Source: Halorussus ruber
GTDB lineage: Archaea > Halobacteriota > Halobacteria > Halobacteriales > Haladaptataceae
DNA length: 49,349 nt
Direction: 5' to 3'
Assembly (NCBI RefSeq): GCF_004765785.1
Contig: NZ_ML219768.1
Coordinates: 293,226 to 342,574, forward strand
Shown: piece by piece, positions 8,023-40,150 of the stretch
Numbering within the stretch: the stretch's first letter is position 1
Layout of the letters: every line of letters starts with the position of its first letter
The notes under the pieces: model-generated
Told to the model about the DNA's origin: nothing
The model's input: the letters and a program-made list of their open reading frames with translations, nothing else
The model's database searches: none
Translations under genes and position numbers: made by a program

Positions 8023-8499
8023 CTACCGTAGCATGTTCTCCTGACCGAGTCGGTCGCCCATGTCGAGTTCGCCGGACTCGATGATGCGACCATCCTCTCG
8101 GTAAATGTAACTACTGCCGTCTGGCAGGAAGAACGTCGGGGTACCGGAGAAGTACTTGTGCTGAATCGATTCCTCCTCGGCGACGTAGTTCCCGTGTCTC
8201 TCACCTGCGGGAATCATCTCGAAGCGACCCGCTTCCGTAGTCGAGCCGTCAGGGTGACGGAGTTTCCCTTCGGTAAGGTAGAGCGTCTGAAGCGAGGTGT
8301 GGTAGTGTGCCGGGAATTCGGCCCCTTCTTCGATCTTCACGAGTTCGAAGACCTCGCCCGAGACGGGGTTCGAGTAGAGGACCTTGTTGTACACGCCCTC
8401 GAAGTGTTCCTCGGGGAGCGGTACCCAATCGTACTCCTCGTGATTACCGAGTTGTGTGAATGCCTCTTCGAAGCCGGATTCGTTTGGTTGCGTACTCAT
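8023..8499 (-). CDS. Cupin-domain protein
   Basis: A 158-residue single-domain cupin. The core shows FPAHYHTSLQTLYLTEGKL (metal-type His-x-His at about residues 65-67 with a downstream glutamate) and a second conserved strand PAGERHGNYVAEEES with another histidine, so a bound metal ion is plausible. Family members range from enzymes to small-molecule sensors and the substrate is unknown. I took the ATG at 8499 (MSTQPNESGFEE) over an in-frame ATG 21 bases upstream, because the longer N-terminus MDCHLTC adds no conserved feature. It lies upstream of the EamA gene on the same strand, so a functional link is possible but unproven. Confidence 0.75.
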   Translation of the reverse strand: MSTQPNESGFEEAFTQLGNHEEYDWVPLPEEHFEGVYNKVLYSNPVSGEVFELVKIEEGAEFPAHYHTSLQTLYLTEGKLRHPDGSTTEAGRFEMIPAGERHGNYVAEEESIQHKYFSGTPTFFLPDGSSYIYREDGRIIESGELDMGDRLGQENMLR

Positions 8500-8805
8500 G
8501 CAGGTCAAATGACAATCCAAGGCAACTAATAGTTTTTGGTGACTACATAGACTAGGAATTTAGTTCTATATAGTAAGTAAACTTCTGTTTTGGGCGGTAT
8601 TGTCGGACAGAAAAAATCTAATCAATATCCTGAAAACGCATTATAGTTGGGATTCCTAGGTTATCGGTAGGCGAAGCGCCGGAGTGCTGTCAAGGGGGAC
8701 ATCCGGGCGGAATACCATCACTACCATTTCAACTAGCACCTTATGAATGTCAACAGCCAAAACGAACTCCGGGATGCCCGTGGTGTGTCCGTCCGGAGAA
8801 AACCG
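8500..8805. other. Intergenic region between cupin and Mn-catalase genes
   Basis: This ~300-base stretch holds the divergent promoters of the cupin gene (minus) and the catalase gene (plus). It is AT-rich around 8530-8640, with a GACTA direct repeat at about 8541-8554 (GACTACATAGACTA). An in-frame ATG at 8743 would extend the catalase by 21 residues. No further gene is evident. Confidence 0.4.
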
Positions 8806-16802: not shown

Positions 16803-17513
16803 TCAGAGCTTGTCGGTCATGCTCAATAGAGCCAAGGCGGCAACGGAGACGGTGACGACGATAAAGGAGACCTTTGGGATAAATTCCAAAAGTGGAGACG
16901 CGACCCCGAGTACGAGCATCACGACCCCGTAAATGGCCAACCACGTCGTGAGAGTTATCAGAAATGCATTAGTGGTAAGTTTGTCGTCGTTCTCGTTTAT
17001 CCAGTCGGCGTAGTAGCGAACCAGTTTCTCGTGATATTCCGGTTCATGGTATTTGCGGTTCTGAATGTCTTCTATGAGTCCAGAGCCGATACCGAGTTGC
17101 ATGGTGGAAGCGGTGTACGTCAAGCCAGCGCAAACTGTCGAGAGTAGTAACGAGAGTCCCCCGTACTTCGTGTAGAGATTGAGGAACTTCGAAGTATACT
17201 GTAATCCATCAGTTCCAGTGGTTCCTGCTGTACCAAAGTCGGTGACTACTGAGAAACCGGTGAGAAGTAATCCAATAATTACGAAATTGAATCGAAGAAT
17301 CCGCATCGATTTCCTATCGATTGCTCGAATCCAGCGAACTTGCTGGTCGAGTGTTCGTTGTGCCCGATTCTGAATCGTACAGAGTCGATTGACCTTCACG
17401 TCATCATCCGAGCTATTCTCGACCTGTCGTCGAGCAAGTTGACCATAGGGACTGTCCTGTGAGGACGATTGTCGAGAGAATTGTTCTTCGCTGGACGACC
17501 CATCAGCACCCAT
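16803..17513 (-). CDS. Four-helix membrane protein, family member A
   Basis: Function unknown. The 236-residue protein has a polar Ser/Gln-rich N-terminus (~1-60), two membrane helices (~72-95 and ~115-140), a soluble segment of ~50 residues and two more helices (~172-230). It is related to the proteins encoded at 25976-26500 and 26952-27599: the pre-helix motif IRAIDRKSMRILRF matches LADIDEKAMRTVRT and [13 protein letters not shown], and the soluble segment has RYYADWINENDDKL matching EVYGYWIQENGNDI. The layout recalls membrane effectors such as SLATT-type proteins, but this is inference. The TAGTC-N6-GACTA palindrome lies seven bases before the ATG. Base composition is lower in GC than its neighbours, consistent with accessory origin. 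Confidence 0.75.
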   Translation of the reverse strand: MGADGSSSEEQFSRQSSSQDSPYGQLARRQVENSSDDDVKVNRLCTIQNRAQRTLDQQVRWIRAIDRKSMRILRFNFVIIGLLLTGFSVVTDFGTAGTTGTDGLQYTSKFLNLYTKYGGLSLLLSTVCAGLTYTASTMQLGIGSGLIEDIQNRKYHEPEYHEKLVRYYADWINENDDKLTTNAFLITLTTWLAIYGVVMLVLGVASPLLEFIPKVSFIVVTVSVAALALLSMTDKL

Positions 17514-17520
17514 GACTTTA

Positions 17521-17536
17521 TAGTGTATATTGACTA
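17521..17536 (-). promoter_or_regulatory. Candidate operator TAGTC-N6-GACTA before member A
   Basis: On the gene strand TAGTCAATATACACTA: left arm TAGTC, AT-rich N6, right arm CACTA (one mismatch to a perfect palindrome). It ends seven bases before the ATG at 17513. The same motif precedes the two related genes at 25976 and 27599. Confidence 0.6.
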
Positions 17537-17577
17537 TAGAAATATCCTTCTGATTCGGTGAGAATCAGCGAGAATTT

Positions 17578-18816
17578 TCATCCAGTCCGCGCCAATCGAA
17601 CCACGATACCCGCGCTGACGAACAGGCAGGCCAACAGGCCCGCGAACGCCGCGGCGTAGGAGACTCGGCCCGCGACGAAGCCGACGTAACTCGGGCCGAG
17701 GCTCCCGAGACCGATGTAGACGGTCCGGGTCGCGCCGAGGTCCCCGCCCATGCTTCCGTCCGGGAAGGTATCCATCAACAGCGCCTGCATCACCGGCGGG
17801 TAGGCCATCAGACCCCCGGCGAAGGCGACGACTGCGAGGGCGACGAGGAGGGTGCCGGAGGCCGCGAGGAGACCCGCGAGCGCCGCGGCGGCGACGACCA
17901 GCGCGCCAGCGGCCACGACGGCGCGGGGGAGCCGGTCACCCAGCGACCCCGCGAGGGGCTTGACCGCCGCGCCGACCAGAAACAGCGCCGCGAACCCGCC
18001 GCTGGCGAGTCCGGCCGGAAACCCCTTCGAGACCCGGAGGAAGGTGGGCAGGAACCCGGCGGCGCTCTGCCACGTGAAGGCGTACAGCGCGTAGGCCAGC
18101 AGGAGCCACCGGAGTCTCGGGTTCTTCCAGAGCCGCCGCGCAGTCTGGCGGGCGTCGGCGAGTCCGGCGACGACGGCCTCGTGAGAGACGTTCGGCCGGT
18201 CGTACTCCTCGCGGCCCCAGACGTGGAGCGCCAGCGCGACACCTGCGAGGACTGCGAGAACGGGCGCGTAGGCCGACCGCCAGCCAGCGACCGCCAGCGC
18301 CGCGACTGCGAGTCCGGCCGCCGCCGCGCCGCCCACGTCACCCGAGGCGGTGTGGAGGCCGAACGCCTGCCCGCGGCGCTCGACGAACAGGTCAGAGACG
18401 AGCGCCCGCGCCGGGGTCGGGTAGAGACCCGCGCCGGTGCCGACGATAGCCGCGCCGACGAGAAAGAGGAGGTAGTCGGGCGCACTTGCGAGGACGGCGA
18501 ACCCCGCAATCACGAGCGAGAGTCCGGCCACGAGGAGGGATTTGCGGGTGAGATTATCTGAGAGCCGACCGCTCGGGTACTGACAGAGCGCGTACAGCCC
18601 CCAGAGAAGGGTAAACGCGAGTCCAGACTGGAACTCGGTGATGGCGAGGTCGTCCATCACCGCCGGGAGCATCGGCGAGAGGACGAGTCGGCCCGCCTGA
18701 ATCGCCGCCCACCCGAGCGAGACCGCGAGCAGGAGGCGGCCGGAGTAGCCGGTCAGCAGGCGCTCGCTCGACTCGTCGGAGTCTGGTTCGGACTCCTCGG
18801 CGCGGCCGTGGGACAC
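17578..18816 (-). CDS. MFS transporter
   Basis: A 412-residue major facilitator superfamily protein with about twelve membrane helices. The loop between helices 2 and 3 has the MFS motif A form YPSGRLSDNLTRKS, and the second half has a related PLAGSLGDRLPRAVV. The N-terminal ~25 residues are acidic and hydrophilic (MSHGRAEESEPDSDESSER). The overall sequence resembles the sugar-phosphate/nitrate/multidrug branch, but substrate cannot be assigned. Helix segments are very Ala/Gly/Val-rich and GC-rich, unlike the neighbouring member A gene, so this looks like core sequence. It has no close co-directional partner. Confidence 0.88.
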   Translation of the reverse strand: MSHGRAEESEPDSDESSERLLTGYSGRLLLAVSLGWAAIQAGRLVLSPMLPAVMDDLAITEFQSGLAFTLLWGLYALCQYPSGRLSDNLTRKSLLVAGLSLVIAGFAVLASAPDYLLFLVGAAIVGTGAGLYPTPARALVSDLFVERRGQAFGLHTASGDVGGAAAAGLAVAALAVAGWRSAYAPVLAVLAGVALALHVWGREEYDRPNVSHEAVVAGLADARQTARRLWKNPRLRWLLLAYALYAFTWQSAAGFLPTFLRVSKGFPAGLASGGFAALFLVGAAVKPLAGSLGDRLPRAVVAAGALVVAAAALAGLLAASGTLLVALAVVAFAGGLMAYPPVMQALLMDTFPDGSMGGDLGATRTVYIGLGSLGPSYVGFVAGRVSYAAAFAGLLACLFVSAGIVVRLARTG

Positions 18817-18929
18817 ATCGGAGCGAGGAGGCGGAGGTATTTGAGTGCGGGCTTTGCGGCAGGGGGCGTGGGACTCCGGAGGTTCGGTGTTCGACTACGG
18901 CGGCTTACATGACTATACAAGTCTTTAGA

Positions 18930-19256
18930 AATTGTGTAGTAGTCTTAAGAGTATAATTTCCTATCCGAAATACGCAAACAGGGAGCAACTCGGACTGAGT
19001 TCACCCACGAGTGCAGTCGTGGGATTCAGGCGGTCACAGACCGCGTTTCCTACGGCTTGGGGGGTGTTCCGAACTCGTGGTGGTTCGGTGCTGGCTGACC
19101 CAGTACGGCCACCGATGGAGACAGCGGGGTTGGTGGCCTTGCCTCCACCTCTGTACTCGAACCAAGAGGCGACATATAGTCAACATTTTGATTATCGTCG
19201 GCTTCATCCCACGGCTGAAGCCGTGGGCTTTCGCCTCGCTACCGCTGTAATACGAA
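18930..19256 (-). mobile_element. Remnant of an IS200/IS605-family element
   Basis: The segment ends with a hairpin CCCACGGCTGAAGCCGTGGG at 19209-19228, of the type found at haloarchaeal IS200/IS605 ends. On the minus strand an open frame finishes AVCDRLNPTTALVGE...LFAYFG and stops at about 18961; this resembles the C-terminal tail of some TnpB proteins, but the RuvC and zinc-finger parts are absent. A second hairpin-like element (CCCACGAGTGCAGTCGTGGG) is at 18995-19014. The whole looks like an internally deleted copy. Exact ends cannot be placed. Confidence 0.45.
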
Positions 19257-19270
19257 AATTAGTACAGACA

Positions 19271-19345
19271 GAAACAGACTGGGCGGAAGCGCCCAAACGC
19301 CTACGAGGAGTCGTCGGGCGCGTCTTCCGCCGACAGGCGCAGGCC
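19271..19345. repeat. Direct repeat copy 1: duplicated 3' end of a small membrane-protein gene
   Basis: Positions 19301-19345 are identical over 45 bases to 20270-20314, and similarity extends imperfectly left to 19271. On the minus strand this copy encodes SGLRLSAEDAPDDSS followed by a stop, i.e. the C-terminus of the gene at 20270-20425 without its body. A hairpin GGGCG-GAAG-CGCCC at 19281-19294 lies just after the stop (minus-strand sense). Confidence 0.8.
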
Positions 19346-19407
19346 GGAATTACCCACACCGACGAAAGGTATAACTGTCGTCTGTCGCAATATTGAACTG
19401 AACGAAG

Positions 19408-19527
19408 ATGGCGTTGGACCACATTCCGACAGTCGAGGACCTCGCGGAGACGACGGGTCAGACGAAGGAGCAACTTCGGAAGGACCGAGAGGCCGCCGCC
19501 GAGAGAAGCACCGAGAGCGACGAGTAG
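19408..19527 (+). CDS. Small acidic helical protein (39 residues)
   Basis: No family recognised. The product begins MALDHIPTVEDLAETTG and continues as a charged helix rich in Glu, Arg and Lys. PTVEDLAETTGQTKEQLRKD could form a short helix-turn-helix-like or dimerisation motif, but it is too short to call. It starts about 35 bases after a TATA-like GGTATAACT (19368-19376) and ends 13 bases before the HEPN-like gene, so the two are probably co-transcribed. A small protein directly upstream of a HEPN-type protein could be its antitoxin or regulator; that is inference from position only. Confidence 0.5.
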   Translation: MALDHIPTVEDLAETTGQTKEQLRKDREAAAERSTESDE

Positions 19528-19540
19528 GAAGCCCGCTTCC

Positions 19541-20203
19541 ATGGAATCCACCGGTTCGACGAACACGATTGACCAGTTACTGCGAGAGCAAAGCGGTCCC
19601 GGGCATCCAGTAACGGACCGTGACATCAAACGCGCTCGCTCGTCGGCGTACCTCGTTCACGGCAATTTCGACGCTCTCGCGCGGGCATGTGACGATATCA
19701 CTACGACTGGCCTCGTGAAAGTCGAGGGGAGTGCAGACGAGTCGGACGTTGCGAACGAGGTGTTTCGACTCGTTCACAACTACGTCTCGTCGCTGTATTC
19801 GTACAACGAACAGATACGGGATATCCTGACGAAGCGACTCGACCGAGAGATTACGAAGCACTCGTTTCTTCCAAACCGAAACGATGCCGGTGCGCCGGAG
19901 TATACCCGACGCCTCGCGTTTCTCTGGGGACTTCGGAACGACTTCCAGCACGGGGATTACTGGTGTCTCTCGGTCAAACTCGAAACGTCACGAGAGACGT
20001 TCGACTATTACCATCTCTACTTCGAGAAACAGGATTTCGAGGCGACTCCCGAAGGAAGTCTCGATGAATCGGGAGACTATCTGGCGCACGCTCCCGACAA
20101 CGACCAGCGGTATCCGCTACCGTACATCGGCGATTTTCATCGGAATCTGTTCACGGAATTCGAGCAACACTTTGAATCGTGGTGCAACCGGAATCAAGAG
20201 TGA
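19541..20203 (+). CDS. HEPN-like protein with R-x4-H motif
   Basis: I do not recognise a named family. The 220-residue mainly helical protein carries LRNDFQHGDYW (R132, N133, H137), matching the R-x4-6-H signature of catalytically active HEPN domains, in which the Arg and His cut RNA. The preceding helices (AFLWG, RLVHNYVSSLYSYNEQIRDIL) fit a HEPN bundle. HEPN proteins are common as toxins and in defence systems. The gene follows a 39-residue ORF after 13 bases and both lie inside a ~925-base segment bracketed by direct repeats, which suggests a cassette acquired as a unit. Its GC content is lower than the neighbouring serA gene. The C-terminal part (~150-220) is of unknown type. Confidence 0.65.
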   Translation: MESTGSTNTIDQLLREQSGPGHPVTDRDIKRARSSAYLVHGNFDALARACDDITTTGLVKVEGSADESDVANEVFRLVHNYVSSLYSYNEQIRDILTKRLDREITKHSFLPNRNDAGAPEYTRRLAFLWGLRNDFQHGDYWCLSVKLETSRETFDYYHLYFEKQDFEATPEGSLDESGDYLAHAPDNDQRYPLPYIGDFHRNLFTEFEQHFESWCNRNQE

Positions 20204-20239
20204 AAAGCGAGTTGCGTTACACGGTCGTAAGCACCGATA

Positions 20240-20314
20240 GAAACCGACCGGGCGGAAGTGCCGGGACCCCTACGAGGAGTCGTCGGGCGCGTCTTCCGCC
20301 GACAGGCGCAGGCC
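20240..20314. repeat. Direct repeat copy 2: 3' end of the small membrane-protein gene
   Basis: The right-hand copy of the repeat at 19271-19345, 969 bases away. It contains the true C-terminal codons and stop of the minus-strand gene at 20270-20425. The 45-base core 20270-20314 is identical between copies. Confidence 0.8.
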
Positions 20315-20425
20315 CGAAGGCCCGACCTTCAGGTCAACGCGGTCCCAACGCTTCGGCACGAACCGAAGGCTGAGAACTCCGACAGTTATCAGCGAAACCA
20401 GAACAAGTAGAGTTTCCCAGAACAT
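20270..20425 (-). CDS. Small single-helix membrane protein (51 residues)
   Basis: Function unknown. The product has one membrane helix (MFWETLLVLVSLITVGVLSL), a basic stop-transfer segment (RFVPKRWDR) and a ~25-residue tail ending LRLSAEDAPDDSS. I chose the ATG at 20425; a longer frame to 20482 would run through a conserved hairpin. That hairpin (20437-20458) lies 11 bases upstream of the ATG, and a TATA-like CTTAAATTG (gene-strand sense) at about 20483-20491 would start the transcript close to the hairpin. Fragments of relatives lie on both sides: a 3' fragment at 19301-19345 and a 5' fragment with its own hairpin at 20572-20628. So the gene has been duplicated and broken repeatedly. Confidence 0.6.
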   Translation of the reverse strand: MFWETLLVLVSLITVGVLSLRFVPKRWDRVDLKVGPSGLRLSAEDAPDDSS

Positions 20426-20436
20426 GTGTGTCTCAC

Positions 20437-20458
20437 GCGCGATGCTGCAACATCGCGC
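20437..20458 (-). promoter_or_regulatory. Hairpin in the 5' leader of the small membrane-protein gene
   Basis: GCGCGATG-CTGCAA-CATCGCGC forms a perfect 8-bp stem with a six-base loop. A second copy at 20607-20628 has the same loop and one compensated base pair, suggesting the structure is maintained. Confidence 0.55.
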
Positions 20459-20571
20459 AAAACATGGTTTGAAGACCGACAATTTAAGTGTTCAACATCT
20501 GCTTTCGTGTTATCGAACCCGTACTTTTATTGCGCAAGTCTGCATACTTAGGGGTGAAGGCTGGAACTCCA

Positions 20572-20628
20572 GTCAGCGAACCAGAACGTTTCCCAGAATA
20601 CTGGTGGCGCGGTGCTGCAACACCGCGC
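20572..20628 (-). pseudogene. 5' fragment of a second small membrane-protein gene with its hairpin
   Basis: CAGCGAACCAGAACGTTTCC and the following bases repeat the start region of the gene at 20425 (CAGCGAAACCAGAACA...GTTTCCCAGAACATG), but the ATG is lost (ATACTG in its place) and the frame stops at once. Hairpin GCGCGGTG-CTGCAA-CACCGCGC at 20607-20628 is the homologue of the one at 20437-20458. Confidence 0.55.
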
Positions 20629-20719
20629 ACGGTTTCTATCGGCCGATGATTCGTTAGTTAGCTCTGTATCTACTCGCTCGCAGTTGCATGCGGTGTCAGA
20701 AGACAGAGAGACCCGTGAC

Positions 20720-22306
20720 CTACTCCGTCCCGTTCAGTTCGATGTAGCGCGCTTCGATAATCCTATCGTCGTTCTCCAGCGCCTCCTTGGCTTCGTCGGG
20801 GACCTGCGCGTCGAGGGTGTAGACCGTCAGCGCCTCGCCGCCGATGGCCTCGCGGGCGTTGAACATCCCCGCGATGTTGACCTCGTGGTCGCCCAGCACG
20901 GTGCCGATGAACCCGATGACGCCCGGCGCGTCCTCGTTGCGGGCGACCAGCATGTGGCCGTGCGGGATGGCGTCGATGCGGTAGTCGTCCACGCGGACGA
21001 TGCGCGGGTCGTCGCCAGCGAACAGCGTCCCCTCGACGCTGATGGACTCGTCCTCACCCGAGACGGTCACACGAACGAGGCTCTGGAAGTCCTCGGTCTG
21101 GCGAGTCTTGGACTCGGTGACCTCGACCCCGCGCTCCTCGGCGATTTGGGGCGCGTTGACCGCGTTGACCTGCCATTCGAGGGGCTGGAACACGCCCTTC
21201 TGAGCGCTGGCGGTGACGAGTTCCACGTCCTCGTCGGCGATGTCGCCCTCGTAGTGGACCTCGATAGAGGAGATGCGCTCGTCCAGCAGTTGGGTCGCAA
21301 TCTTGCCCGCGGTCTCGGCCAGTCCGATGTAGGGTTCGACGCGGGGGAAGGCGCTCTCGTCGATGGAGGGCGCGTTCAGGGCGTTGACGACCGGCTCCTC
21401 GTTGAACGCCGCGACGACCTGATCCGCGGTGCTGGTGGCGACGTTCTCCTGTGCGGCCTCGGTACTCGCGCCGAGGTGGGGCGTGACGACCACGTCCTCC
21501 ACGTCGAGCAGGGGGTTGTCCGGCGAGACGGGTTCGTCGGCGAACACGTCCACCGCGGCACCCGAGAGGACGCCGTCTTCGACTGCCTCGGCGAGAGCCT
21601 CCTCGTCCACGACGCCGCCGCGAGCGCAGTTGACCAGATAGCCGCCTTCGAGTTGGGCTAGCTCCTCGTCGGAGATGAGACCCTCGGTCTCGGGAGTCAG
21701 CGGCGTGTGGACCGTCAGGAAGTCCGCGCGGTCGAGACACTCGTCTAAGTCCACCAGCTCCGCGCCGAGTTGGTTCGCGCGGTCCTCGCTGATGTAGGGG
21801 TCGTAGGCGACCAGTTCCATCCCCAGCGAGTTGAGTTTCTTGGCGACCTCTTGGCCGACCCGACCGAGGCCCACGATGCCGAGGGCCTTGCCGTTGAGTT
21901 CGGTGCCGAGGTAGTCGCCCTTGGCCCACTCGCCGTCGCTGAGTCTGGCGTGAGCCTGCGGGATGGACCGCGCGGTGGCGAACGCCATGGCGACGGTGTG
22001 TTCGGCGGCGGCCCGGACGTTGCCCTCCGGCGCGTTGGCGACGATGACGCCGTGTTCGGTGGCCGATTCGATGTCGATGTTGTCTACTCCGATACCCGCT
22101 CGGCCGACGATGACGAGGTCCGATGCGGCCTCGAAGACCTCCTCGTTCACGTCGGTGCCGGAGCGTACGATGAGTCCGTTCGCGTCCGAGACGGCAGACA
22201 GTAGCGCGTCCCCCTCTACCTCGTAGGCAGTTTCGACTTCGTGGCCAGCCTCGCGGAGTCGGTCCAGACCTGCGTCGGCGATGGGGTCCGTTACGAGAAC
22301 CTTCAT
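20720..22306 (-). CDS. serA: D-3-phosphoglycerate dehydrogenase
   Basis: SerA oxidises 3-phosphoglycerate to 3-phosphohydroxypyruvate with NAD, the first step of serine synthesis. The 528-residue, long-form protein has the substrate domain, the NAD-binding Rossmann motif GIVGLGRVG (residues 143-151), the active-site segment VNCARGGVVDEEAL, the catalytic His in VVTPHLGAS, an intervening domain (~320-450) and a C-terminal ACT domain starting about residue 455 (HMLVARNEDAPGVIGFIGTVLG), which usually binds serine for feedback control. The ATG at 22306 gives the canonical MKVLVTDPIADAG; upstream in-frame sequence is not conserved. Confidence 0.95.
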   Translation of the reverse strand: MKVLVTDPIADAGLDRLREAGHEVETAYEVEGDALLSAVSDANGLIVRSGTDVNEEVFEAASDLVIVGRAGIGVDNIDIESATEHGVIVANAPEGNVRAAAEHTVAMAFATARSIPQAHARLSDGEWAKGDYLGTELNGKALGIVGLGRVGQEVAKKLNSLGMELVAYDPYISEDRANQLGAELVDLDECLDRADFLTVHTPLTPETEGLISDEELAQLEGGYLVNCARGGVVDEEALAEAVEDGVLSGAAVDVFADEPVSPDNPLLDVEDVVVTPHLGASTEAAQENVATSTADQVVAAFNEEPVVNALNAPSIDESAFPRVEPYIGLAETAGKIATQLLDERISSIEVHYEGDIADEDVELVTASAQKGVFQPLEWQVNAVNAPQIAEERGVEVTESKTRQTEDFQSLVRVTVSGEDESISVEGTLFAGDDPRIVRVDDYRIDAIPHGHMLVARNEDAPGVIGFIGTVLGDHEVNIAGMFNAREAIGGEALTVYTLDAQVPDEAKEALENDDRIIEARYIELNGTE

Positions 22307-22551
22307 GATTGTGGAAAGTCGTGCCGCCGGGATAACCCTTTCTCCGCATGTATCTTTTGCCAGCGTTTGAACGAGTGGCAATCGTTCGTTTTTCTCGGGA
22401 GTATTTCGAGCGCGTCAGAAAAAGTTCCCAAAAGTTTAACACGCCATCGTAGCATATCCGTTACTGTCGGCAGACGACGATAGCTCGCTGACTTGAGCCG
22501 ACAACGGCCGATACGGTAATTCCGAAGAAAACGGGAAAGGTGGTTGGCGAG

Positions 22552-22674
22552 CTATCCTACGAGCCACATGCCGAAGCCAGCCCCCATGAGGGACCACCCG
22601 ACTGGCCTTCCACTTCCAAACAGGGTAGCTCCCCCAATAATGAGGGCCGCTGGCACTTCGTTACCGTCTTTCAT
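22552..22674 (-). CDS. Possible small hydrophobic protein (40 residues)
   Basis: The frame encodes MKDGNEVPAALIIGGATLFG, a short polar turn, then WSLMGAGFGMWLVG: two short Gly-rich hydrophobic segments, a pattern seen in small haloarchaeal membrane proteins. No clear TATA-like box is seen at -25 to -30, so expression is uncertain. It lies alone between serA and the PiT genes. It could be a chance frame. Confidence 0.35.
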   Translation of the reverse strand: MKDGNEVPAALIIGGATLFGSGRPVGWSLMGAGFGMWLVG

Positions 22675-22808
22675 TTCTCGGGCAGACGTTTCTTCGCACG
22701 TGACGATGCCCAGCGCCCCGTGCTACGAGCGTTGAAATGTCTTCTCCTGCATAATTTTTGCCTTATAGAACGAATAAGACTATATCGACTCGAAAGCTTC
22801 AATACGTC

Positions 22809-22943
22809 GTGGACAATGATGGATTTGCGAAGGAGACGACTACCGACCAGTCTAACGAGACGAGCGTGCCACCCGAGGTCGAGCGCCGCGAGATGCTGGC
22901 CGAGCGTCGTAGTCGAACCGCTCTACTGAGTACCACAATTTAA
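22809..22943 (+). CDS. Possible small charged protein (44 residues)
   Basis: A GTG-initiated frame encoding a polar, Thr/Glu/Arg-rich peptide (DNDGFAKETTTDQSNE... and VERREMLAERRSR). Its end overlaps the promoter of the first PiT gene. An upstream segment AAGACTATATCGACTC at 22776-22791 matches 13 of 16 bases of the palindrome before the gene at 27599. Evidence is weak; the frame could be spurious. Confidence 0.25.
   Translation: MDNDGFAKETTTDQSNETSVPPEVERREMLAERRSRTALLSTTI
22933..22943 (+). promoter_or_regulatory. Promoter box of PiT transporter 1
   Basis: CCACAATTTAA starts exactly 36 bases before the GTG start at 22969. The same 11 bases start exactly 36 bases before the second PiT gene, so the duplication included the promoter and its spacing has been kept. 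Confidence 0.6.
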
Positions 22944-22968
22944 GCGGTTCTCCGCCGATAGAGAAACC

Positions 22969-24114
22969 GTGACCAGTCTCCTCCTCGTCGTCGGTATCGC
23001 GGTCGCTATCTTCGTCGGCTTCAACATCGGCGGGTCGAACACCGGGGTCGCCTTCGGCCCTGCGGTCGGCAGCGGCACCGTCTCGAAACTCGGCGCGGCC
23101 GGTCTGATGAGCGTCTTCTTCCTCCTCGGTGGCTGGACCCTCGGACGCCGGGTCGTGGACACGCTCGGAAAAGGTCTCGTCGCGGGCGACCCGTTCACGA
23201 TGGAGGTCACTATCTTCGTCCTGCTGTTCATCGGGTTCGCGCTGTTCGTCGGCAACGTCTTCGGCGTGCCCGCCTCGACTTCCATGACCGCGGTCGGGGC
23301 CATCATCGGACTCGGTCTGGCGCTCGGTCGACTCAAGGTCGATGCCGTCGTGGAAATCGTCGGCTGGTGGCTCGTCGCGCCCATCGTCGGCTTCTGGGTC
23401 AGCGCGATGATAGGCCGGTACTGGTACGACGACCTCGCGGAGTACGTCGCCATCGACCAGACCGAAGGCCCCCTGCTCGAATTCGACCGGTCGGGCGCGG
23501 TTCCGCGCCCCGAACTCGGTCCGAACACGACCCAGCGCGAGTTCGGCGGCACCGCACTCGTGGTCGGCATCGGCTGTTACATGGCGTTCTCGGCGGGCAC
23601 GAGCAACGTGGCGAACGCGGTCGCGCCCCTCGTCGGCAACGGCGCGATTTCGATGAATCAGGGGATTCTGCTGGCGGCCGGGGCGACCGCGCTCGGGGCG
23701 TTCACCATCGCGCGCCGGACGCTGGATACGGTGGGCAACGACTTGACCGACCTCCCGCTGGTCGCCGCGCTCGTGGTCGCCAGCGTGAGTTCGACCATCG
23801 TGACCGCGCTCTCCGCGCTCAGCATCCCCGCGAGTTTCGTCGTCATCGCCACGATGAGCGTCGTCGGTCTCGGGTGGGGCCGGGCGACTGTCGCGGAACC
23901 AGTGCCCGACACGCCAGCGGTCCCCGCCTCGAGCGTCGGCGGCGCGGTCGAAGCCGACGACTCGTCGCGCGTGGTCGAACCCGACGGCGCACCCGCCGCC
24001 GCCGAACTCTACCAGCCCGCGACGACCGCGCGGGTCATCCTGCTCCAGAATCTCGTCCCCGGCGTGGCGACCGTGGCGGCGTATCTGGTCTTCCGGTACG
24101 CGCCGATTGTGTAG
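22969..24114 (+). CDS. pitA: PiT-family inorganic phosphate transporter 1
   Basis: PiT proteins move phosphate, usually as a metal-phosphate complex, with a proton or sodium ion. The 381-residue protein has two inverted PiT repeats. The first half has the signature GFNIGGSNTGVAFGPAVGSG and VFGVPASTSMTAVGAI. The second has AFSAGTSNVANAVAPLVGNG and RRTLDTVGNDLTDLPL. About ten membrane helices are expected, with a hydrophilic Ala/Asp-rich loop before the last helix (~310-355). The GTG start is fixed by the promoter box at -36 and by agreement with the paralogue next door. The gene is followed after 72 bases by a close paralogue in the same direction. Confidence 0.92.
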   Translation: MTSLLLVVGIAVAIFVGFNIGGSNTGVAFGPAVGSGTVSKLGAAGLMSVFFLLGGWTLGRRVVDTLGKGLVAGDPFTMEVTIFVLLFIGFALFVGNVFGVPASTSMTAVGAIIGLGLALGRLKVDAVVEIVGWWLVAPIVGFWVSAMIGRYWYDDLAEYVAIDQTEGPLLEFDRSGAVPRPELGPNTTQREFGGTALVVGIGCYMAFSAGTSNVANAVAPLVGNGAISMNQGILLAAGATALGAFTIARRTLDTVGNDLTDLPLVAALVVASVSSTIVTALSALSIPASFVVIATMSVVGLGWGRATVAEPVPDTPAVPASSVGGAVEADDSSRVVEPDGAPAAAELYQPATTARVILLQNLVPGVATVAAYLVFRYAPIV

Positions 24115-24150
24115 TCCCGTCCGACCGGAGGCCGCACGTCGGGCGAACCG

Positions 24151-24161
24151 CCACAATTTAA
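24151..24161 (+). promoter_or_regulatory. Promoter box of PiT transporter 2
   Basis: CCACAATTTAA again, starting 36 bases before the GTG at 24187; followed by AACGCGTTTC where copy 1 has GCGGTTCTCC. Second member of the duplicated promoter pair. Confidence 0.6.
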
Positions 24162-24186
24162 ACGCGTTTCGTGCGATGTATAGACC

Positions 24187-25392
24187 GTGATTAGCGTACT
24201 CCTCCTCGTCGGTCTCGCGGTCGCAGTCTTCGTGGGCTTCAATATCGGTGGCTCCTCTACCGGCGTCGCGTTCGGTCCCGCGGTCGGCAGCGGCGTCCTC
24301 TCGAAACTCGGCGCGGCCGGTCTGATGGCCGGGTTCGCGCTGTTGGGCGGGTGGACAGTCGGCCGGAACGTCGTGGCGACGATGGGCGGGAAAATCGTGC
24401 CCTCGGCGCTGTTCACGCTCCCCGCGAGCGTCGGCGTCCTGTTCTTCGTCGGGTTAGCCCTGCTGGTCTCGAACCTGTTCGGCGTGCCCGCCTCGACCTC
24501 CATGACCGCGGTCGGCGCAATCGCCGGACTCGGCGTCGCGGCGGGCGACATCGACTGGGGCGTGATGGGCCAAATCGTCTCGTGGTGGCTGGTCGCTCCA
24601 ATCGTCGCCTTCTGGGTCTGCGCGGTCATCGGGCGGTACCTCTATCCCTACCTCGACGTCTGGTTCCGCATCGACCGGTCCGAGGGACCGATGTTCGAGT
24701 ACAAACGTATGGCGTCGATTCCCTACCCGGCACCGAGCGCGACGACGAACCGCCGGGAGTTGATTAGCAGCGTCCTCGTGGTCGTCATCGGCTGTTACAT
24801 GGCGTTCTCGGCGGGCGCGAGCAACGTGGCGAACGCGGTGGCCCCGCTGGTGGGGAGCGGCGAGTTGGGCATCAATCAGGGTATCTTCCTCGCGGCGGGA
24901 GCCATCGCGCTCGGGGCGTTCACCATCGCGCGCCGGACGCTGGACACGGTGGGCAACGACTTGACTGACCTGCCCCTGCTGGCCGCGCTCATCGTCGAAG
25001 TCGTCTCGGCGTCGCTCATCACCTTCCTGTCGTACCTCGGGATTCCGGCCAGTCTCGCGGTCAGCGCGACGATGTGCATCATCGGCCTCGGGTGGGGCCG
25101 GGCGACTCGCGCGGTCAAAGTCCGCGACGCCGCGGCCGCCGCAGTCCGAGGAGACGGCGAGGAGGACGGCAAACCCAGAAGGGGCGAGTCGAAGATGTCG
25201 GTGGACGCATTGACGGCGGAACCCGAGGACGAGGTCCAGAAAATCGGCGAGGAGGACCCAGACGAACTCCAGACCAAGGACTTGTTCGACCCGGCTTCGA
25301 CGGGGCGGGTCATCATGCTCTGGATTCTGACCCCGAGCATCTCGGCGGTGGCGTCGTTCCTGCTGTTCGAGTTCTTCCCGATTTATCAGTAG
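24187..25392 (+). CDS. pitA: PiT-family inorganic phosphate transporter 2
   Basis: A 401-residue paralogue of the preceding gene. It shares GFNIGGSSTGVAFGPAVGSG, FGVPASTSMTAVGAI, AFSAGASNVANAVAPLVGSG and RRTLDTVGNDLTDLPL. It differs mainly in the hydrophilic loop before the last helix (~310-370), which is longer and mixed-charge here (DGEEDGKPRRGESK...VQKIGEEDPDELQT), a plausible site for regulatory differences. With its own copied promoter, the pair may respond differently to phosphate or have different affinities. The GTG start mirrors that of copy 1. Confidence 0.92.
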   Translation: MISVLLLVGLAVAVFVGFNIGGSSTGVAFGPAVGSGVLSKLGAAGLMAGFALLGGWTVGRNVVATMGGKIVPSALFTLPASVGVLFFVGLALLVSNLFGVPASTSMTAVGAIAGLGVAAGDIDWGVMGQIVSWWLVAPIVAFWVCAVIGRYLYPYLDVWFRIDRSEGPMFEYKRMASIPYPAPSATTNRRELISSVLVVVIGCYMAFSAGASNVANAVAPLVGSGELGINQGIFLAAGAIALGAFTIARRTLDTVGNDLTDLPLLAALIVEVVSASLITFLSYLGIPASLAVSATMCIIGLGWGRATRAVKVRDAAAAAVRGDGEEDGKPRRGESKMSVDALTAEPEDEVQKIGEEDPDELQTKDLFDPASTGRVIMLWILTPSISAVASFLLFEFFPIYQ

Positions 25393-25454
25393 CATCCGGG
25401 CGTCTCGGGGTGAAACAATAACTACTAACCATGTCGCGGCCGAACATCCGGGTG

Positions 25455-25844
25455 ATGCCTACCGTAGAATACCTCAACTACGAAGTGCTGGACGACCAGG
25501 GCTGGGACATGGACGACGACGACCTCTTCGAGCAGGCCGCCGACGCGGACCTCGGTGACGAGGACTACGGCAGCCTCGACGTCGCCGAAGGCGAGTACAT
25601 CCTCGAGGCCGCCGAGGCCCAGGGCTACGACTGGCCCTTCTCGTGCCGCGCCGGTGCCTGTGCGAACTGCGCCGCCATCGTCAAAGAGGGCGAAATCGAC
25701 ATGGACATGCAGCAGATCCTCAGCGACGAGGAGGTCGAGGACAAGAACGTCCGCCTGACCTGTATCGGTAGCGCGGCGACGGACGAGGTCAAAATCGTCT
25801 ACAACGCCAAGCACCTCGACTACCTCCAGAACCGCGTCATTTAA
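25455..25844 (+). CDS. fdx: Halobacterial 2Fe-2S ferredoxin
   Basis: The main haloarchaeal electron carrier, accepting electrons from 2-oxoacid:ferredoxin oxidoreductases. From ATG 25455 ([19 protein letters not shown]) the protein has 129 residues and matches the well-known halobacterial ferredoxin nearly throughout. The N-terminal acidic insertion (~residues 15-45, [15 protein letters not shown]) is the hyperacidic domain typical of halophiles. Cluster ligands are C64, C69 and C72 in [11 protein letters not shown] and C103 in RLTCIGSA. An upstream in-frame ATG at 25431 would add eight residues not found in the family. A T-rich stretch (GGATTTTTTGCG) at 25861-25872 could serve as terminator. 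Confidence 0.97.
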
Positions 25845-25860
25845 GCGCGTTTCCGGGTTT

Positions 25861-25872
25861 TGGATTTTTTGC
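25861..25872 (+). terminator. T-rich putative terminator after ferredoxin
   Basis: TTGGATTTTTTGCG follows 17 bases after the ferredoxin stop. Archaeal transcription often ends at such T-runs without a hairpin. Confidence 0.4.
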
Positions 25873-25940
25873 GAGAGCGTCTTTGGGTACTCGTAGGAGT
25901 CGCTATCTTCGATTTTCATCGAATACTTTAGGCCGATAAG

Positions 25941-25956
25941 TAGTCTTATGTGACTA
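25941..25956 (+). promoter_or_regulatory. Candidate operator TAGTC-N6-GACTA before member B
   Basis: TAGTCTTATGTGACTA is a perfect five-base inverted repeat with a six-base spacer. It is centred ~27 bases before the ATG at 25976, where a TATA box would be expected. A further GACTA follows at 25961. Confidence 0.6.
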
Positions 25957-25975
25957 TACCGACTACTCGGTGGTG

Positions 25976-26500
25976 ATGGAAGGTGACGCAGGAGAGCGAA
26001 GGCCGAAATCTGAGGACAGCGACTCCGACGTCAACGACGATGGCTGGAATTGCGAACGAAGAGAACTCACCTATCAGGAAGCACGAGCAGTACTCGAATC
26101 ACAACAGACGATACTTGCAGACATCGACGAGAAAGCGATGCGGACGGTTCGGACGACTGTCCTCCTTATCGGCGCAATCGCATCGGCAGTGAAAGTAGCG
26201 AAAATCGAGTTTCACGGCGGTCTGGCGGTTGCCGGTTCCGTATTTCTATTCGGTTCACTCGCGTTTGGTTTGACCACATACGATGAAGCTGACCCCTATT
26301 TGGGGCCGAATCGAGCGTATTTGGAGCAGCTCGCCGCGAACGAATTTCAAGGGACGTGGAAAGAAGACCTGATAGAAGTGTATGGATACTGGATACAGGA
26401 GAACGGAAACGACATCGAATTCAACAGCGTTCTCCTTCGAGCCACACAGATTCTCCTCTTTGTCGGACTCGGGTTCCTCTCGTTATCGCTCGTTTTTTGA
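25976..26500 (+). CDS. Four-helix membrane protein, family member B
   Basis: Function unknown. From ATG 25976 the protein has 174 residues; two GTG codons six and three bases upstream are alternatives. A polar ~55-residue N-terminus precedes LADIDEKAMRTVRT, the motif shared with members A and C, then two membrane helices (~68-90, ~95-112), a soluble segment with YLEQLAANEF and EVYGYWIQENGNDI, and a C-terminal pair of helices (~150-174). It is the shortest member, lacking the long N-terminal tail of A. The palindrome TAGTC-N6-GACTA covers the expected promoter. GC content is lower than neighbouring core genes. Confidence 0.75.
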   Translation: MEGDAGERRPKSEDSDSDVNDDGWNCERRELTYQEARAVLESQQTILADIDEKAMRTVRTTVLLIGAIASAVKVAKIEFHGGLAVAGSVFLFGSLAFGLTTYDEADPYLGPNRAYLEQLAANEFQGTWKEDLIEVYGYWIQENGNDIEFNSVLLRATQILLFVGLGFLSLSLVF

Positions 26501-26584
26501 GAATTTCACCTGCCTACCAAGACGCTCGTGAGAAGTGACTGATTCACCACTACCTTTTTACGGCCAAATCATGAGATAGTCAAT

Positions 26585-26689
26585 ATGGAAGATAAGAGAC
26601 CGATTCACCCTGCCGAAAAAGGGCAACGTAGCAACAAGGGGTCGGCATTTCTCTCGCGCCTCCTCGGTCGCCGCGACGACTCCGAGTAG
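26585..26689 (+). CDS. Small basic protein (34 residues), leaderless
   Basis: No family recognised. The product starts MEDKRPIHPAEKGQRSNKG and ends with an amphipathic segment AFLSRLLGRRDDSE. A TATA-like CTTTTTAC lies 25-32 bases before the ATG, the canonical leaderless spacing. A half-site TAGTCAATAT overlaps the start. The oppositely oriented ORF at 26769-26885 also encodes a short polar peptide with an amphipathic C-terminal LxxFVKRLL, so the two may be distant relatives or functionally paired. Confidence 0.45.
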   Translation: MEDKRPIHPAEKGQRSNKGSAFLSRLLGRRDDSE

Positions 26690-26768
26690 CGCCAGCTATT
26701 TCTCCTCGATAAGCGCCTCTACAGAACCCTACTCTGAGGATTTCGAAGCTCGAAAAGGCCGAAAACGT

Positions 26769-26885
26769 TCAGTCGAGTAGTCGCTTTACGAACTGGTAAA
26801 GAGAGGGTCCAGCCCATTCGCTGACGCCGTTCGATTCCACGTGAGCGTCTTCCGTGTCGGGCGTCGGTTGTTCCGTCGCGGCCAT
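26769..26885 (-). CDS. Small acidic protein (38 residues), leaderless
   Basis: No family recognised. The product starts MAATEQPTPDTEDAHVESNG and ends GPSLYQFVKRLLD, an amphipathic helix. A TATA-like CTTATAATG (gene-strand sense) lies 27-35 bases before the ATG, so a leaderless transcript is likely. It converges with the small gene at 26585-26689, leaving ~80 bases between stops. Confidence 0.45.
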   Translation of the reverse strand: MAATEQPTPDTEDAHVESNGVSEWAGPSLYQFVKRLLD

Positions 26886-26951
26886 CAGTATCGGAAACGT
26901 TCTATCGCTATCATTATAAGTGTTTTACCGTCGCTCTGTCTTTCCAATCTT

Positions 26952-27599
26952 CTATTCTGAGACCCGACCACGAACGAAATCGTACAAGAGATACGTAGCT
27001 AACAGCACGACTAGTGGACAGCCGAAACGAGTCGGAAGGTCGAAACGAGCGATGGGACCGACGAACGCAGTTCCAACGAGGAGATACCCGAGACTGAAGA
27101 AGATACACATCTTGCAGTTGAACAATCGGGTGTGGTCTTTCTCGATTTCTGTTTCGTTGTTCGAGACCCAGTTAGGCACTTTCTGGTTGATGTCTCGTTT
27201 GGCGTCTGTGATGGTAGTCTCGTCGGAGAACTCGTCTTCGAGATACTGGACGCTCGGTCCGCTAGCAATTTCGGTCCGATGGTACGCGAGAACCGCGTAG
27301 AGGAATCCTGCCGCCAAGAAAAGAACACTCAAAACGACGTACTCGTTGATGAAAAAGCCGAACTCGACATTGGTCGAAGGACTGAGACTGCGTTTTGCCG
27401 CGACGAGAAACGCACCGGAGTACACGCTCAGAATCACGCCAAGGAGACGAATTAGATGGGCCGATTTCTCGTTCAAACCGCGTGATTGCTCTTTCTGTCG
27501 GTCGAGAACGTCCGTGTTTAGTTCGTGAAGAAAATCGACGATGTGCTGTTCCCTTTCGGCGGCATCAGTGTCATCGCTCCCCTGCCTGTTCGGCGGCAT
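26952..27599 (-). CDS. Four-helix membrane protein, family member C
   Basis: Function unknown. The 215-residue protein has a polar N-terminus, the shared pre-helix motif [16 protein letters not shown], two membrane helices (~55-75 and ~92-112), a ~50-residue soluble part ([14 protein letters not shown]..., [15 protein letters not shown]) and two closely spaced helices (~163-205) ending in a short basic tail (DFVRGRVSE). Compared with member B the first loop is longer and polar. The gene is preceded by the best example of the palindrome (TAGTCGATATAGACTA), seven bases before the ATG, exactly as for member A. Codon and base composition are AT-richer than the adjoining peptidase gene. Confidence 0.75.
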
Positions 27600-27606
27600 C
27601 CGTTGA

Positions 27607-27622
27607 TAGTCTATATCGACTA
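27607..27622 (-). promoter_or_regulatory. Candidate operator TAGTC-N6-GACTA before member C
   Basis: On the gene strand TAGTCGATATAGACTA, a perfect inverted repeat with the spacer GATATA. It ends seven bases before the ATG at 27599. Confidence 0.65.
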
Positions 27623-39541: not shown

Positions 39542-40005
39542 CGTACTGTCTTCATAACTATTTATGAAATAGAGGATATTAAAGGCTGTGTTCGGCGTGG
39601 AATATCCAGCCCTGTTAGTGTCGGTGGAATGTGTCACTGAGTGACGGCGCGTATCCACGGCCTGAAGGCCGTGGTATTGCGCCTACTCCGCGTATAACGT
39701 CTTCTGAAGACTTCTTTCGGGCGTAGTCTAAGTCGTCGGGGTATCGCCGGTCATAGACGGCATACAGGTACGAGAGAAGTTGCCGTTTGTCGCTCGGAAA
39801 ACGCGGGATGTCCCGTGCAAGTTGTGTCGTATCGTGGATTTCCGCAGGTGTGGTTCCTTTCGTGACTAGAATCGCCTTCAGTAGTGATTCTACGGCCAAA
39901 TGACACTCTTTTAATTTCTTCTGGGGTTGGCTGTTATCCCGTGCTGACTGAATATCGCGCTCGTACTTTGCCAGCCACTCGTCAACTGAGGCCATCGAGC
40001 GTAGA

Positions 40006-40021
40006 TAGCCAATATAGTCTA
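40006..40021 (-). promoter_or_regulatory. Degenerate palindrome before the HEPN gene
   Basis: On the gene strand TAGACTATATTGGCTA, of the form TAGNC-N6-GNCTA, ends ten bases before the HEPN ATG. It resembles the TAGTC-N6-GACTA sites at 17521, 25941 and 27607 in size, AT-rich spacer and position, but two arm bases differ. Confidence 0.3.
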
Positions 40022-40150
40022 ATACGACTTTCGGCAGACACATCTGCAACCGGAGGTTGAGGATATACTGAATTCAAAACCTGACAGTAAGGACTTAAAT
40101 TGACTCTCAGCGGCCGAACGCTTTTGCTCGCGGACGGTGTGCAACGACCA

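Follow-up and report, generated by a model that had tools for sequence, protein, structure and literature searches.

TAGTC-N6-GACTA, a candidate operator at gene promoters and replication origins of Halorussus

Several regulatory elements of haloarchaea are symmetric. The motif of haloarchaeal TrmB is described in passages of PMC10817205 as a 19-bp, partly palindromic sequence found at many promoters, with targets in carbon metabolism. In Haloferax volcanii, CdrS, a global regulator linked to cell division, has a symmetric motif with 18 sites, 15 of which are located between 41 and 110 nt ahead of the transcription start, and the genes named include ftsZ1, dacZ and proteasome genes (passages of PMC8406309). 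Haloarchaeal oriC regions, in turn, contain origin recognition boxes (ORBs) with a G-string, AT-rich regions and a G-rich inverted repeat (passages of PMC3936714 and PMC3528665), and a non-ORB element located between ORBs modulates origin efficiency (passages of PMC3936714). Here we describe the palindrome TAGTC-N6-GACTA in a 49,349-nt stretch of Halorussus ruber DNA (contig NZ_ML219768.1, positions 293,226 to 342,574; hereafter, the window), where it precedes three related membrane-protein genes. The same palindrome recurs at endonuclease genes, at a conserved gene that we call gene A and in replication origins of the genus, and it is probably the operator of one DNA-binding protein.

The palindrome resembles the TrmB motif as a partly palindromic site present at many promoters. 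Whereas the TrmB motif is a 19-bp sequence associated with carbon-metabolism genes and, in the passages of PMC10817205, not with origins, TAGTC-N6-GACTA precedes nuclease, membrane-protein and other genes; TrmB was set aside on targets only, as described in those passages. CdrS likewise is a haloarchaeal regulator with a symmetric motif. However, TAGTC-N6-GACTA sites abut or overlap gene starts instead of lying 41-110 nt upstream, and none of ftsZ1, dacZ and the proteasome genes was seen behind the 13 exact sites of H. ruber; CdrS was thus set aside on position and targets, again as described (passages of PMC8406309). Like the non-ORB element in the passages of PMC3936714, the palindrome sits in the origin interior, yet with its AT-rich spacer it is neither an ORB nor the G-rich repeat, and it also occurs at promoters. 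No such element is described in the passages of PMC3936714 and PMC3528665 on haloarchaeal origins. Among the literature matches listed (titles and starts of abstracts), we likewise found no description of TAGTC-N6-GACTA. In bacterial CtrA or DnaA circuits, one protein binds the origin and many promoters. The likeness to these circuits is one of layout only.

The window contains the following sites and genes, the gene starts and open reading frames (ORFs) being our own calls and not annotation:

17521-17536, minus strand: palindrome 1, TAGTCAATATACACTA, one mismatch to TAGTC-N6-GACTA, ending 7 bp ahead of an ATG
16803-17513, minus strand: membrane-protein gene 1, 236 aa, one of a 21-member family in the genome
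16608-16736, minus strand: small ORF after gene 1, 42 aa
25924-25930, plus strand: TATA-like TACTTTA upstream of palindrome 2, recognised by eye
25941-25956, plus strand: palindrome 2, TAGTCTTATGTGACTA, exact TAGTC-N6-GACTA
25961-25965, plus strand: third half-site GACTA, N4 from palindrome 2, completing a perfect composite array
25976-26500, plus strand: membrane-protein gene 2, 174 aa from the ATG, with in-frame GTG codons at 25970 and 25973
26585-26689, plus strand: small ORF after gene 2, 34 aa, EKGQRSNKG type
27607-27622, minus strand: palindrome 3, TAGTCGATATAGACTA, exact TAGTC-N6-GACTA, ending 7 bp ahead of an ATG
26952-27599, minus strand: membrane-protein gene 3, 215 aa
26769-26885, minus strand: small ORF after gene 3, 38 aa

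The original prediction, made from the letters of the window, was right about the position and strand of all three palindromes, about two of them being exact and one carrying a single mismatch, about the seven bases that separate sites 17521 and 27607 from an ATG, and about the kinship of the three genes, all of which belong to one divergent membrane-protein family. It erred in centring site 25941 on the TATA position: by eye, this site is better placed approximately 14 bp downstream of TACTTTA, which would leave gene 2 with a short leader. The third half-site is an addition to that account; read on the minus strand, it forms with palindrome 2 a perfect TAGTC-N4-TAGTC-N6-GACTA. When the whole window was subjected to 100 dinucleotide shuffles, 0.01 exact sites were expected against 2 observed, and 0.97 sites with at most one mismatch against 7 observed, no shuffle reaching either count. 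At up to two mismatches the window holds 23 sites against 13.3 expected, a number reached by 1 of the 100 shuffles.

To set the palindrome against comparable sequences, 59 other palindromes obtained by permuting the half-site TAGTC were scanned around the starts and ends of the family genes. Eight of the 21 H. ruber members carry a site with at most one mismatch in these regions, 5 of them exact (three of the eight being the discovery data and five new), and 13 lack one. The permuted half-sites average 0.22 and 0.02, respectively, with maxima of 2 and 1. Moreover, when spacers of 3 to 10 were tried, only spacer 6 had exact sites; spacers 3-5 and 7-10 gave none, and at most one near site. In the other Halorussus genomes, 58 family genes (60 matches minus 2 partial ones) carry 6 sites, 2 of them exact, against 0.68 and 0 expected and control maxima of 4 and 0. 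Conservation ahead of orthologues is therefore weak for the membrane family. A chance origin of the three window sites, which the original prediction had judged unlikely, is indeed unlikely, as both the window shuffles and the permuted controls fall far below the observed counts.

Genome-wide (4.32 Mb in 31 contigs), the exact motif occurs 13 times in H. ruber and the reversed pattern 4 times; when one mismatch is tolerated, the counts rise to 83 and 46, the near sites that we inspected being the listed portion of those 83. The 13 exact sites are the highest number among 141 sampled genomes of the class, the next being 5. The 17 other Halorussus genomes together contain 54 exact forward sites against 22 of the reversed control, whereas in 138 genomes outside the GTDB family (Haladaptataceae) the motif is rarer than the control (72 against 319). 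An excess across the whole genome is thus characteristic of Halorussus, although sites at gene A and at some origins reach beyond the genus within the family.

Exact sites from other genomes of the GTDB family recur just before endonuclease ORFs of the same kinds (for genomes G021-G027 a few loci were inspected). Domains were searched for in L059, L049, L091, L007 and L057, the remaining genes being assigned by visible similarity. The endonuclease genes with an exact site just upstream are:

Loci L003, L059, L060, L082 and L099: HNH/NUMOD3-type endonuclease genes
Loci L049, L074 and L092: HNH-repeat-type genes (homing-endonuclease repeats)
Loci L007, L091 and L094: PD-(D/E)XK endonuclease genes
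Loci L057 and L061: LAGLIDADG endonuclease genes

Gene A (loci L048 and L219-L243) encodes a protein of approximately 150 aa with no Pfam match and was found in 25 of the 28 family genomes. The palindrome, with at most one mismatch, stands at its start in 21 of these 25 genomes, in 13 of them as an exact copy, against 0.05 and 0 in the permuted controls. The start codon mostly falls inside the site, and the inner bases vary among orthologues. Of 145 class genomes searched, 9 match gene A at E <=0.01. The two matches within the same GTDB family are strong, and the other seven, found elsewhere, are weak (E 7.7e-4 to 0.0075); the one of these seven that was inspected looks like an antisense frame. 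Gene A has been seen only in one haloarchaeal family. Ten residues are invariant in 21 aligned sequences (L21, R23, P28, V56, W93, R115, V128, W130, Y172 and D173 in L234 numbering). Gene A was considered as the regulator itself, which is unlikely: it was not found in genomes G016, G019 and G021, also by a profile search run without a positive control alongside, yet the origins of these three genomes retain a site that deviates at no more than one base. Gene A is therefore more probably one of the targets.

The palindrome is also located upstream of orc1/cdc6 genes. At oriC1-type loci it was found in 16 of 17 Halorussus cases, 6 of them exact, against 0.153 and 0.017 in the controls; this count leaves out L274, L276 and L279 (three of 26, whose start was not recognised by the script), as well as L281 and G015 (no match). 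In Halorussus the oriC1 palindrome lies 223-240 bp ahead of the orc start, by eye between ORB-like repeats. Two sister genera carry it at 3 of 6 oriC1 loci, once exactly, and in the Haladaptatus-like genus g2 it lies 339-351 bp from the orc start. Among further orc/cdc6 loci, 12 of 24 have the palindrome, located 262-283 bp from the start; 3 of these copies are exact, and the control values are 0.203 and 0.017. All 12 belong to one orc type, common to 17 of the 24, two of them are identical copies in one genome, and the set leaves out other loci, mostly of genus g2, and G016:C4 (exact site in L093). At 17 orc loci of other haloarchaeal families, which belong to other orc types, there was no exact site and one with a single mismatch, against 0.02 and 0.37 expected. 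Since 1 of 17 compares with 0.37 expected, the origin site appears to be lineage-specific and not general in haloarchaea. The interiors of the Halorussus oriC1 regions (L192-L194 and L259-L273) share conserved-looking blocks, a GTTTGCGG-ATA-GGTTT-like one and CTAGGACAAGAA, and wording related to these blocks occurs at the second origin type.

The arrangement of the copies follows a spacing rule. Of the 164 sides of 82 distinct exact palindromes, 9 have an extra half-site of the same orientation exactly 9 bp away, and no other distance between 5 and 44 is represented more than once. The resulting array, TAGTC-N4-TAGTC-N6-GACTA, is found at origins and at HNH and HNH-repeat genes, several of these sites being orthologous oriC1 copies and hence not independent, and it is perfect at window site 25941. 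With regard to promoters, 38 aligned gene-proximal sites show a rise in A+T at -16 and from -13 to -9 (0.84 at -13), and again from -3 to -1; these sites were chosen for preceding genes, several are orthologous, and L142 was counted in the wrong orientation. Start codons fall from inside the palindrome to approximately 30 bases past it. Given the A+T rise ahead of the palindrome and this range of start codons, the promoter copies would lie between a TATA-like stretch and the start codon, which fits the position of a repressor.

The original prediction had drawn from its three sites a single regulator for three membrane-protein genes. This proposal agrees with the above-chance counts, with the finding of sites beside relatives both in H. 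ruber and in sister species, and with the placement of the sites ahead of gene starts, and a scan of this and related genomes found the motif near gene starts far above the permuted and shuffled controls. The proposal did not hold as far as specificity is concerned: the motif also stands before unrelated genes (endonuclease genes and gene A) and in origins, and many homologues of the membrane-protein genes lack it, two observations that in part match what the prediction itself had counted as adverse. The idea that the motif marks the membrane-gene family only is ruled out by the sites at other conserved genes and origins. The prediction of a shared regulator is thus partly supported; since sites are kept ahead of orthologues and in origins, they mark a wider regulon and are not noise.

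The enrichment, position, conservation and array spacing of the palindrome, and its location upstream of orc1/cdc6 genes, can be read directly in the genomes. From them we infer that a protein would bind these sites, that it would be the same protein everywhere, that it would repress and that it would sense some signal. The palindrome is very probably a true operator, and we assign a probability of about 0.6 to the reading that it is the operator of one DNA-binding protein that would repress promoters and also act at origins. Under this proposal, Halorussus and its GTDB family would possess one sequence-specific protein, probably a dimer able to oligomerise, that binds the site. The dimer would recognise TAGTC/GACTA half-sites lying 11 bp apart, and another subunit or dimer could join it at 9 bp. 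Bound around the likely transcription start, the protein would block RNA polymerase at a subset of the membrane-protein genes and their short ORFs (see below), at endonuclease genes (HNH, LAGLIDADG and PD-(D/E)XK) and at the family-restricted gene A. It would also occupy the copies of the site, often arrayed, that lie in the AT-rich interior of oriC1 and of related origins. There the protein may modulate unwinding or initiator access, or the origin may titrate it, and this binding would tie the state of the origin to the release of the repressed genes. As the putative targets (nucleases, PycTM/SLATT-like membrane proteins and perhaps HEPN proteins) look costly to express, it is plausible that some trigger, perhaps one tied to replication, would release the protein.

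A more far-reaching version, which we offer tentatively as a possibility, would make this protein a lineage-specific archaeal master regulator acting on site arrays at origins and at nuclease and membrane-effector promoters; origin firing, stalling or titration would release self-targeting or defence genes, in a circuit that would be an archaeal counterpart in layout to those of CtrA and DnaA and would employ a new protein. The origin-promoter link is the most interesting property of the element; few archaeal cases are known of one cis-element joining replication origins to gene control. Furthermore, with the element defined to the base and its spacing rule, genus (Halorussus) and targets at hand, the binding protein could be found.

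Several observations weigh against an operator of one repressor. Among the other Halorussus family genes, 52 of 58 lack a site of at most one mismatch in the scanned regions, as do all 10 non-Halorussus homologues examined, and the nine genomes of genus g2 show no genome-wide excess (27 forward against 39 control). Among the 13 exact H. ruber sites, L001 falls within a coding frame, and no convincing ORF follows L004 or L013. Short, possibly broken frames follow sites L082, L074 and L005. The spacing to the TATA-like stretch varies by several bases (approximately 6 bp at window site 1), and inverted extra half-sites at 7 bp also occur, on 3 of 164 sides. Three genomes with an origin site yielded no gene A, and the binding protein itself is putative. 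Finally, the origin sites lie 223-283 bp (339-351 bp in g2) from the orc start and not at a promoter; therefore, one repressor mechanism does not explain both settings.

This distance lends some weight to the idea of two systems that use a similar word, namely an element of origins that serves an initiator or a helicase-loading factor and, at promoters, a repressor operator unrelated to it. The conserved-looking flanks of the origin copies (GTTTGCGG-ATA-GGTTT-like and CTAGGACAAGAA, by eye), which were not noticed at promoters, point in the same direction as their location 223-283 bp or more from the orc start. However, the half-site, the N6 spacer and the third half-site at N4 are identical in both settings, and we consider two systems unlikely. 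The recurrence of the site before homing-type endonuclease genes and a patchy, multi-copy gene family would also be expected of a recombination, insertion or homing target that marks where mobile genes insert. Such a role is improbable, since the sites are placed between a TATA-like stretch and the start, since in four H. ruber cases the site lies inside the unit, between membrane gene and short ORF, and since both gene A (21 of 25 genomes) and oriC1 (16 of 17) have retained it at the same location.

The start codon that lies inside the palindrome in most gene A orthologues and in some other genes could instead suggest an RNA element, a short hairpin in the leader or at the start codon controlling translation. 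Its stem would have only 5 bp and its loop 6 bases, the third half-site is a direct repeat that adds no stem, and the copies upstream of orc genes are far from the starts of those genes, so that an RNA role appears very improbable. As for chance or base composition, the number of window sites with up to two mismatches is only modestly raised (23 against 13.3), and the exact motif is rarer than its control in the 138 genomes outside the family (72 against 319). Nevertheless, the controls run within the genus (permuted half-sites, reversed pattern, other spacers and shuffles) speak against chance, the orthologue and origin counts contradict it, and this explanation is scarcely credible. The operator of one DNA-binding protein thus remains the reading that we prefer.

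The membrane-protein family itself was characterised further. Two profile searches each found 20 members in H. ruber, with a union of 21, and a profile search found 60 matches in 11 of the 17 other Halorussus genomes. A short ORF of 28-60 codons follows 17 of the 21 H. ruber members. In the subfamily of gene 2, this ORF is recognisably conserved (KGQRS/GQKSGKG type) across several genera, and in one metagenome-assembled genome (L252) the membrane protein itself terminates in a similar stretch, an apparent fusion. From the conserved short ORF and this fusion, the unit looks like a two-gene cassette, which is multi-copy in Halorussus (the three window units, loci L026-L045 and L174). This unannotated cassette, which occurs in several haloarchaeal genera, is here drawn to attention. 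In four cassettes, L044 and those of the window, the palindrome comes ahead of the membrane gene; in four others (L026, L029, L032 and L033) it separates this gene from the short ORF. Several of the short ORFs end in a basic, helix-like stretch after (K)GP.

None of the three window proteins matched a Pfam family above the cut-off. Among 14 family members, the best Pfam matches were weak (DUF2207_C in 2, best E 2.2e-4), and the PADLOC profiles of PycTM matched 5 weakly (best E 8.7e-6), those of 2TM effectors 2 and that of RTasSLATT 1. For the second window protein, AlphaFold2 predicts helices at 21-75, 81-104, 113-120 and 128-173 (mean predicted local distance difference test score, 77.4); a PDB fold search with this protein gave no match with E <=0.001 among 542 and was uninformative. 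These weak profile matches and the helical model liken the family to Pycsar PycTM and SLATT/CBASS effectors, and it may weakly be called PycTM/SLATT-like. Unlike those effectors, the window family is paired with a short ORF, has 21 copies in the genome and has no confident fold match. No cyclase was noticed by eye among the window ORFs beside these genes, no search aimed at cyclases having been made. On viral contigs there were no confirmed relatives of the window subfamily or of gene A.

Other copies of the motif were found in the window:

26577-26592, plus strand: TAGTCAATATGGAAGA, a degenerate copy with 2 mismatches that overlaps the start codon of the small ORF after gene 2
8530-8554, minus strand: further composite site, TAGTCTATGTAGTCACCAAAAACTA, 1 mismatch, ahead of the gene at 8023-8499 (minus strand)
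40006-40030, plus strand: further composite site, 2 mismatches (1 within 40015-40030), ahead of a HEPN-domain gene at 39615-39995 (minus strand)

The gene at 8023-8499 is cupin-like by eye, and the HEPN-domain gene, with its weaker composite site, is a possible further target. Elsewhere in H. ruber, the exact site at L005 (1501-1516) overlaps the first codons of a short ORF, which lies behind a gene reading, by eye, like a ribbon-helix-helix antitoxin. Finally, the reversed control pattern occurs 17 times in genome G058 and at most 8 times in the other genomes, perhaps reflecting another motif or a repeat.

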